Shown here one piece after another: positions 4,960-18,093 of a stretch of DNA of 34,343 nucleotides. Source of the DNA: Chloroflexota bacterium (GTDB taxonomy: Bacteria; Chloroflexota; Dormibacteria; CF-121); the NCBI GenBank assembly GCA_005881175.1, contig VBEN01000024.1, forward strand, positions 1 to 34,343, given 5' to 3'. Within the stretch, counting starts at the first letter, position 1. Every line of letters begins with the position of its first letter. Position numbers and translations under genes: made by a program. The notes under the pieces were generated by a model that was not told the DNA's origin, made no database searches, and saw only the letters and a program-made list of their open reading frames with translations.

Positions 4960-4966
4960 TATGGTA
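4960..4966. promoter_or_regulatory. Shared symmetric -10 element (TATGGTA) of gatD and the GT2 gene
   Basis: The heptamer TATGGTA reads TATGGT on the plus strand and TACCAT on the minus strand, one base offset. Each box ends 7 nt before a GTG: 4973 (+, GT2) and 4953 (-, gatD). This fits two leaderless transcripts fired from one bidirectional -10 element. No convincing -35 box is seen. Prediction from sequence only. Confidence 0.5.
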
Positions 4967-16041: not shown

Positions 16042-17052
16042 CTAGCCGCCGATCTGGCTCATGGTCTTCGCCGGACGGACGAAGTCCGCCTGGCCGATCT
16101 TGTGCCCCTCTTCCTTCTGCCAGACGGCCGCGACGACGAAGTCGCGGATCTCCGCGTCCGACGCCCCGCCGCGAAGCAGGGCCTTGACGTCGTGCTCCTG
16201 GATCGAGAACAAGCAGGTGCGCAGATGGCCCTCGGCCGTCAGGCGAATGCGATTGCAGACCCGGCAGAAGGCGTCGCTGACGGAGGGAATCACGCCGATC
16301 CCGCCCGGAGCACCGTCTCGAAACCGGAATCGGGTCGCGGGTGCGGGCCGCTGATCTTTGATGGGCTCCAGGGCGAACTCGCGGTCGATCGCCTCGATGA
16401 TCTCGCGACTTGCCACCACGCTGTCCATCGACCAGATGCCGTCGGCGTCGAGTGGCATGAACTCGATGAAGCGGACCTCGTAGCCCTCGCTCCGCGCCAG
16501 CCGCGCGAAGTCCAGGATTTCGTCGTCGTTGCGCCCGCGCATGACGACCATGTTGAGCTTGATGGGGCTGAACCCGGCCGCGCGCGCTGCGCCCAAACCG
16601 CGCAGGACCCGGTCGAGCGCGTCGCGCCGAGCCAGGTCCTTGAAGCGATCCGAGTGCAGCGTATCGAGACTCACGTTGAGCCGCTTGAGCCCGGCGGCGC
16701 GGAGGGCCGCCGCCTTTTCTTCCAGCAGGATCCCATTGGTCGTCATGGCGATATCGAGTGCGCCGTCGATCCCGGCAATCATCGCGGTGAGTTGTTCGAT
16801 TCCTTTGCGCACGAGCGGCTCGCCACCGGTAAGCCGAATGGTGCGGACGCCACACTGATCGACCAGGATCCTGGTCACCCGGACGATCTCCTCGAAGCTG
16901 AGCACGTCGTCGCGCGCCAGCCAGGGCAGGCCGGCGGCCGGCATGCAATAGACGCATCGGAAATTGCACCGGTCGGTGACTGAGATCCGCAGGTCATCGG
17001 CGATCCGGCCGAAGGTATCGCGGAGATGCACGACAGGCTGGGAGCTGGGCAC
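16042..17052 (-). CDS. moaA: GTP 3',8-cyclase MoaA
   Basis: MoaA is the radical-SAM enzyme for the first step of molybdenum-cofactor synthesis. The 336-residue protein has the N-terminal cluster motif CNFRCVYC (C29, C33, C36), RLTGGEPLVRKGI, TTNGILL, RLNVSLDTL, KLNMVVMRGRND, and the C-terminal second-cluster cysteines in FCRVCNRIRLTAEGHLRTCLF; it ends with the catalytic QIGG. I start it at the GTG at 17052 rather than the ORF-track ATG at 17076 because TATACT ends 6 nt upstream. That box is shared, on the other strand, with the DNA ligase promoter. No other mo-cofactor genes are in the window, apart from a possible link to the pterin dehydratase downstream. Confidence 0.95.
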   Translation of the reverse strand: MPSSQPVVHLRDTFGRIADDLRISVTDRCNFRCVYCMPAAGLPWLARDDVLSFEEIVRVTRILVDQCGVRTIRLTGGEPLVRKGIEQLTAMIAGIDGALDIAMTTNGILLEEKAAALRAAGLKRLNVSLDTLHSDRFKDLARRDALDRVLRGLGAARAAGFSPIKLNMVVMRGRNDDEILDFARLARSEGYEVRFIEFMPLDADGIWSMDSVVASREIIEAIDREFALEPIKDQRPAPATRFRFRDGAPGGIGVIPSVSDAFCRVCNRIRLTAEGHLRTCLFSIQEHDVKALLRGGASDAEIRDFVVAAVWQKEEGHKIGQADFVRPAKTMSQIGG

Positions 17053-17057
17053 GAATT

Positions 17058-17064
17058 TAGTATA
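17058..17064. promoter_or_regulatory. Shared symmetric -10 element (TAGTATA) of moaA and ligC
   Basis: TAGTATA reads TAGTAT on the plus strand, ending 7 nt before GTG 17071 (ligase), and TATACT on the minus strand, ending 6 nt before GTG 17052 (moaA). Only 18 bp separate the two start codons, so both mRNAs would be leaderless and compete for one element. Confidence 0.55.
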
Positions 17065-17070
17065 TGGGGC

Positions 17071-18093
17071 GTGCAATTAGGCGTCCTGCCCCCGTTCAGT
17101 CCGATGGAGGCGAAGGTCCAGTCGGAGCTGCCCCGCGGCGACGCCTGGCAGTACGAGCCGAAATGGGATGGCTTCCGCGCCGTCGCCTTCAAAGACGGCG
17201 ACGAGGTCGTCATCCACAGCCGCAACCAGAAACCGCTCACCCGCTACTTTCCCGAGCTGGTGCCGGCGATCCAGCGGATCAAGCCGAAACGCGCCGTGCT
17301 CGACGGCGAGATCGTGATCTTCACCGGGTTCGGGACCGATTTCGACGCCATGACGCTGCGAATCCACCCGGCCGCCTCGCGCGTCAACATGCTGGCCAAG
17401 GAGCAGCCCGCCACCTATATCGCATTCGACCTGCTGGCGGACGGCGATGAGAGCCTGCTCGACGTGCCGCTCAGGGAGCGCCGGCCGCGCCTTGAATCAC
17501 TCCTCGGTCGCAAGCCCGAGTCGATCAATCTCAGTCCGGTCACGCGTGACCGGGAGGTGGCGCTTAACTGGCTCAAGGAATATCGGGGAACCGGCCTCGA
17601 CGGCATCGTTGCCAAGCGCGTGGACAGTATTTACCATCCCGGCGAGCGCGCCATGATCAAGGTGAAAGAACAGCGCACCGCCGATTGCGTCGTCGGCGGC
17701 TTTCGCTGGGGCAATGACGGGAAACGCGTAGGCTCCCTGCTGCTCGGCGTGTATCGGGGCAAGACCCTCGAGTACATCGGCCATACGTCGGGTTTCGATG
17801 ACGCCCAGCGCCGCGAGCTGGTTGGTCTGCTCGAGCCGCTCCGTGGCGGCCCCAGTTTCGAGGGCGGCCGCGCCCCCGGCGGCCCGAGCCGCTGGTCGCA
17901 GGATCGCGACCTTGCCTGGGAACCGGTGCGGCCGGAGCTCGTGTGCGAGGTGGCTTTCGACCGGCTGGAGAACGACCGGTTCCGCCACGGGGTCGGCTTT
18001 GTGCGCTGGCGACCGGATAAATCGCCGAAGTCCTGCACGATGGCGCAACTCAAGGCCGAGGCCTCGGTCGAGCTAAAGAAGTTGTTCGCCTAG
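17071..18093 (+). CDS. ligC: ATP-dependent DNA ligase, LigC type
   Basis: A compact 340-residue ATP-dependent ligase that seals nicks through a lysyl-AMP. The adenylation motif is YEPKWDGFRAVAF (Lys31), followed by DGEIVIF, YIAFDLLADG, GLDGIVAKRVDSIYHPGERA (motif IV) and MIKVKEQRTADCVVGGF (motif V). The OB-fold domain runs from about 215 with LLLGVYRG and VGFVRWRPDKSP near the end. There is no polymerase, nuclease or zinc-finger extension, so it matches the LigC form used with Ku/NHEJ-like or base-excision repair in high-GC bacteria. The GTG at 17071 follows TAGTAT by 7 nt. A polynucleotide-kinase-like gene lies 2.6 kb downstream. Confidence 0.92.
   Translation: MQLGVLPPFSPMEAKVQSELPRGDAWQYEPKWDGFRAVAFKDGDEVVIHSRNQKPLTRYFPELVPAIQRIKPKRAVLDGEIVIFTGFGTDFDAMTLRIHPAASRVNMLAKEQPATYIAFDLLADGDESLLDVPLRERRPRLESLLGRKPESINLSPVTRDREVALNWLKEYRGTGLDGIVAKRVDSIYHPGERAMIKVKEQRTADCVVGGFRWGNDGKRVGSLLLGVYRGKTLEYIGHTSGFDDAQRRELVGLLEPLRGGPSFEGGRAPGGPSRWSQDRDLAWEPVRPELVCEVAFDRLENDRFRHGVGFVRWRPDKSPKSCTMAQLKAEASVELKKLFA

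Follow-up and report, generated by a model that had tools for sequence, protein, structure and literature searches.

The window analysed here is a stretch of 34,343 nucleotides, contig C136 of a soil Chloroflexota metagenome-assembled genome (G000; 2.88 Mb in 246 contigs). It contains moaA and a gene for a LigC-type ATP-dependent DNA ligase (ligC) in divergent orientation, with a very short spacer between them, and, at a distance from this pair, a second divergent pair with a comparable spacer. The relevant features are the following:

16042..17052, minus strand: moaA, GTP 3',8-cyclase, GTG start (Pfam Radical_SAM and Mob_synth_C; TIGR02666 above cut-off)
17053..17070, no strand assigned: entire intergenic spacer, 18 bp (read from the sequence; gap conserved among relatives)
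17058..17064, no strand assigned: putative shared near-symmetric -10 core TAGTATA (from the sequence; identical in 15/15 sequences, window included)
17058..17063, plus strand: predicted -10 box TAGTAT of the ligase gene, 7 nt before GTG 17071 (from the sequence and the lineage TANNNT peak)
17059..17064, minus strand (read 17064-17059): predicted -10 box TATACT of moaA, 6 nt before GTG 17052 (same grounds)
17071..18093, plus strand: ligC-type ATP-dependent DNA ligase, GTG start (Pfam DNA_ligase_A_M and A_C; NCBIfam PRK08224 above cut-off)
4960..4966, no strand assigned: putative second shared core TATGGTA between gatD (GTG 4953, minus strand) and a GT2 glycosyltransferase gene (GTG 4973, plus strand) (from sequence and domains)

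A preliminary description of this DNA placed GTG 17052 and GTG 17071 18 bp apart and assigned boxes on both strands, 6-7 nt from these codons, to the heptamer TAGTATA, and the sequence bears out both statements. Positions 17050-17073 read CAC GAATT TAGTATA TGGGGC GTG, with 18 bp between the two GTG codons, whose first bases are 19 positions apart. The first T of the TANNNT box falls at -12 relative to moaA and at -13 relative to the ligase gene, close to the 12 bp typical of leaderless genes, and TAGTATA has the symmetric form TANNNTA in which both strands use the same bases. Only 97 sites of this rare form occur in 742 kb, and TAGTATA at 17058-17064 is the sole occurrence of the heptamer in the sampled own-genome DNA. 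A spacer of only 18 bp leaves room for neither 5' leaders nor Shine-Dalgarno sites. A scan of the interval 16800-17300 detected no -35/-10 promoter pair, and a single-strand hairpin at the core site scores no better than in shuffled sequences (z -0.66).

The profile alignments begin at residue 1 of the ligase (NCBIfam PRK08224) and at residue 10 of MoaA (TIGR02666), and GTG 17052 and GTG 17071 are plausible as the predicted starts. Two ATG codons, one in frame at 17026 and one out of frame at 17064, lie ahead of the ligase start or overlap it, and automatic gene calling could be misled by them. In another genome (G001, contig C93), the ligase is matched as two pieces in different frames (L096, L097), which suggests a frameshift or an assembly error.

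A simple codon-usage gene finder was applied to two samples, 248 kb from the own genome and 400 kb from a congener, G014, and the predicted starts reveal a TANNNT signal in the lineage. The motif is found at -12, -13 and -14 of 13, 7 and 6 of the 217 genes, respectively, in the own sample, and of 12, 12 and 10 of the 313 genes in G014, compared with approximately 1-2 per position elsewhere; the control motif ATNNNA gives no peak at -12 to -14 upstream of the predicted starts in either sample. Zheng et al. (2011, PMC3160421) described a leaderless TANNNT signal with its box some 12 bp ahead of the start codon and put the share of leaderless genes at about 4-6% in 4 of 12 Chloroflexi genomes; in Deinococcus, TANNNT has been shown to function as the -10 region (Zhong 2025, PMC12340547). 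The peak at -12 to -14 is this signal, the mark of leaderless promoters. Many starts in these samples are also preceded by Shine-Dalgarno-like sites, so that both modes coexist in the lineage. The boxes located 6 and 7 nt from the moaA and ligC starts match the lineage peak, which counts in favor of a leaderless promoter.

The core between moaA and ligC was compared among orthologues drawn from the genus and the family, where g1 denotes the own genus, and g4 (L212), g2 (L013/L213) and g3 (L214) denote other genera. The TAGTATA heptamer is identical in all 15 readable sequences, 14 of which come from the genus (window included) and one from g4. The spacer is 18 bp long in 14 of the 15 sequences and 17 bp long in L097, and the flanks vary (GAATT, GAACT, GAAAT, CAACC or GAAACC on the left; TGGGGC, TGAGTC, TGTGGC, TGGGC or GGTGC on the right). 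Among the same sequences, 10 of the 128 four-fold degenerate sites are invariant (about 8%; 3/32 in ligC and 7/96 in moaA), and the corresponding probability of seven consecutive invariant positions, p^7, is about 2e-8 under the assumption that the sites are independent, so that such a run would be very unlikely in the absence of selection. The invariant positions include both outer bases, the first T, which serves the plus-strand box only, and the last A, which serves the minus-strand box only. In g4, the core is shifted by one base within an unchanged 18-bp gap. In g2, moaA and the ligase gene are still divergent, 31 bp apart, without a shared core; the boxes, read by eye, are TACACT, 6 nt from the moaA GTG, and CACAAT, an imperfect box at the same distance (6 nt) from the ligase ATG. 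In g3, moaA was not found adjoining the ligase gene. Thus, the shared core is a feature of g1 and g4, and sharing is not essential, since the two genes have remained divergent in the outgroup g2 with no common core.

The gatD/GT2 core is found as TATSGTA (TATGGTA or TATCGTA) in every readable relative from g1, g4 and g2, and as TATAGTA in g3. Only the center varies and both outer TA pairs are kept, as expected of a core that is used on two strands. With this core conserved as well, the moaA/ligC and gatD/GT2 cores both look selected. The earlier proposal that moaA and ligC share a symmetric promoter is well supported by the conservation of their core in two genera and by that of the gatD/GT2 core, but the layout is not exactly that of gatD/GT2, as had been stated: there, flanks of 6 + 6 make up a 19-bp gap with the core, compared with 5 + 6 and 18 bp here.

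The genome search that the preliminary description called for, aimed at divergent starts centered on TANNNTA, gives a mixed result. The census with gene context covers samples of the genomes, and part of the own-genome sample was chosen because of earlier pattern hits. Counted over 15 whole genomes, the pattern CAYN5TANNNTAN6RTG has 31 matches versus 28 for the reversed control, so that pattern counting without gene context proves nothing. When gene context is included, the gaps between divergent starts that carry both boxes are concentrated at 17-19 bp (4/11 in the own sample, partly ascertained, and 4/12 in G014, where two of the four correspond by orthology to the two loci of the window), compared with mostly 0-1, and at most 3, for other motifs. 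An initial estimate of the enrichment, 4 of 97 TANNNTA sites in the own sample (p ~5e-6), was rejected as inflated because the window had been chosen beforehand and four contigs (C59, C87, C152 and C210) had been included on account of being flagged by the pattern. With the window, these four contigs and both known loci in G014 excluded, divergent starts flank 2 of the 209 remaining TANNNTA sites, whereas for the control, other palindromic motifs, the figure is 46 of 55,512 (p = 0.014); this independent genome-wide enrichment is modest. In the own genome, there are at least 4 verified shared-core loci against approximately 400 divergent pairs (an extrapolated number), that is, about 1%. The 6,6 spacing pattern adds the gatD locus along with candidates on C28 and C131, the former of which is not located between gene starts. 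No such pair is present in the family-level sample G015, which, at 242 kb and 35 leaderless-type starts, is too small to carry weight. The presence of two such loci in one 34-kb window is a coincidence, and the case rests on conservation, not on recurrence. The earlier reading of the recurrence as design rather than chance is supported only in part: recurrence within the window is weak evidence and the arrangement is rare.

Two types of known promoters are relevant for comparison. The first, reported by Warman and colleagues (2021, Nat Microbiol 6:746) and taken here as later papers describe it, comprises bidirectional promoters built on one symmetric -10 element, with start sites 7-25 bp apart; according to PMC10268837, the separation is most often 18 bp, and -7T and -11A are reciprocally paired. 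As recounted there and in PMC12825309, divergent genes flank 24% of those in E. coli. A T at -18, opposite the initiating A, is common but not required (PMC10268837). The moaA/ligC spacer resembles these promoters in that one -10 element would be read on both strands, with positions 17059 and 17063 pairing reciprocally as -7T/-11A of the two directions, and in that the separation of the start sites, inferred from the start codons alone, would be 18-19 bp, close to the usual 18 bp. Unlike in the Warman type, both predicted start sites coincide with start codons and the promoter would be the entire spacer; also unlike the E. coli type, the spacer lacks the -18T, as would follow from initiation at G (GTG codons), and no -35 match was found. 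With the leaderless TANNNT promoters (PMC3160421, PMC3898074, PMC12340547), the locus has in common a box about 12 bp upstream and the lack of a Shine-Dalgarno site and of a clear -35 element, but those promoters have been described for single genes whereas the moaA/ligC box is common to two. Closely juxtaposed divergent promoters are reported to be common in Mycobacterium tuberculosis (Cortes et al., PMC3898074). In this bacterium, Rv1129c and prpD are divergent and, as predicted here for moaA and ligC, both leaderless, in that case by start-site mapping (Cortes 2013, PMC3898074); with 120 bp separating their start sites (1254510 and 1254630), they have, unlike moaA and ligC, no common core. 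In the literature searched, we found no publication on divergent leaderless genes with one common -10 core. Given the precedents of Cortes et al. and our second-hand knowledge of Warman 2021, a new class is not claimed, and the moaA/ligC spacer is best read as a conserved, unusually compact example of an already known promoter type.

These observations suggest that the 18-bp spacer is, with high probability, a bidirectional promoter of the symmetric -10 kind already known, here with leaderless messages on both sides. The polymerase with the housekeeping sigma factor would engage the single near-symmetric core in either orientation, so that in one orientation the moaA RNA would begin at or adjoining G17052, and in the other, the ligase RNA would begin at or adjoining G17071. 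Both messages would then be leaderless or nearly so, the promoter would fill the spacer from one start codon to the other, and both messages would be translated from a 5'-terminal GTG. The actual start sites, the sigma factor, the leaderless translation and the firing in both directions from TAGTATA are what we infer from the anatomy of the locus. A stronger version, in which TAGTATA is selectively kept as the sole complete promoter and the orientation of the polymerase alone sets the moaA/ligase output ratio, forming a coupled circuit without other cis elements, is speculative and appears unlikely.

Tight packing of divergent genes could also bring two independent leaderless promoters into overlap, in which case each direction would be transcribed independently and the arrangement would reflect compaction without regulatory meaning. 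We rate this explanation at slightly better than an even chance, and it does not exclude the leaderless bidirectional promoter because it is compatible with the main anatomy and denies only the regulatory consequence. It is consistent with the occurrence of the arrangement in only about 1% of divergent pairs, with the separate boxes between the same genes, 31 bp apart, in g2, and with the behavior of bidirectional promoters in E. coli, five of which showed no competition at basal activity (PMC12825309). The persistence of the shared core across two genera speaks against it, although conservation does not reveal the reason. The E. coli results are also pertinent to the possibility of a mutual-exclusion switch, whereby a polymerase on one gene would block the other and the cell would trade moaA against the ligase. 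One polymerase footprint spans both boxes, so that simultaneous binding would be sterically impossible by geometry, and competition did appear in E. coli, only once one direction was strongly activated (PMC12825309). However, GTP 3',8-cyclase and DNA ligase have no known functional link, an activator would not fit between the genes, and competition was absent in E. coli at the basal level, at which the five tested promoters are too weak. By this analogy, the mutual exclusion that the preliminary description had raised is possible but not the default expectation, and we regard such a switch as quite unlikely.

The two remaining alternatives question the double use of the core. It could serve one direction only, the start site of the other gene being distal, inside its neighbor, and the second box arising by chance; one functional box and one chance base can yield a symmetric heptamer, and the start codons and start sites rest on sequence prediction. 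This alternative is very unlikely given that neither outer base of the core varies among the 15 sequences, that each start codon stands at a leaderless distance from its box, and that no nearby -35/-10 promoter was found (16800-17300). The least probable option, which we consider highly improbable, is that the heptamer is conserved as coding sequence, with translation starting upstream at ATG 17026 (ligase) or TTG 17076 (moaA). Both frames are indeed open in the window back to these codons, but the TAG within the core forms an in-frame stop shortly before the ligase GTG in L097 and L212, so that the stretch is not ligase-coding there; furthermore, the gap differs by one base in L097, moaA of L212 lacks a start codon farther upstream in this stretch, and GTG 17031, the other internal candidate for the moaA start, is not conserved.

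The leaderless bidirectional promoter proposed here would combine leaderless genes with symmetric bidirectional promoters, each a known concept, in a spacer (18 bp) that is nearly the smallest that the geometry permits. The comparison across genera indicates that such a compact promoter unit can be conserved, and the conserved unit supports specific start codons for moaA and the ligase gene in this lineage. The locus also offers a clean natural test of coupling between divergent promoters with one common -10 element.

Other divergent pairs of real genes whose closely spaced starts both have leaderless-type boxes include CoA-transferase and DNA polymerase X (L179, L164), DUF2269 and a polyketide-cyclase-like protein (L177), and an ABM-domain protein and MsrA (L138). 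Between the genes of the CoA-transferase family III and the DNA polymerase X family, a third conserved core, TAGGTTA (TAACCTA on the other strand), is found in a gap of 18-19 bp (L179:4703 on contig C87 of the own genome, and L164:7731 on contig C14 of G014). At three loci (L191:198-220, L127:19337-19362 and L152:10542-10567), divergent starts are 21-24 bp apart and the boxes overlap only at the central TA (ANNNTANNNT), possibly representing the 23-bp class of bidirectional promoter, with uncertain start codons, some of which are TTG; L191 pairs with a SpoIIM-domain gene and L152 with a sigma-70 family gene. A candidate regulator site, GCCCCATATACT, was rejected, with one recurrence in G014 (L165) and none elsewhere in the own sample. 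Also in G014 (L165:16472, contig C14), GCCCCATATACTTGG lies upstream of another GTG-started gene and closely resembles the sequence upstream of moaA, which may be due to chance or to a shared site. On contig C131 of the own genome (G000:C131:1638-1662), a near-perfect palindrome, CATAGTGGGTAGAGTATGCACTATG, with start codons on either side, has an operator-like appearance.
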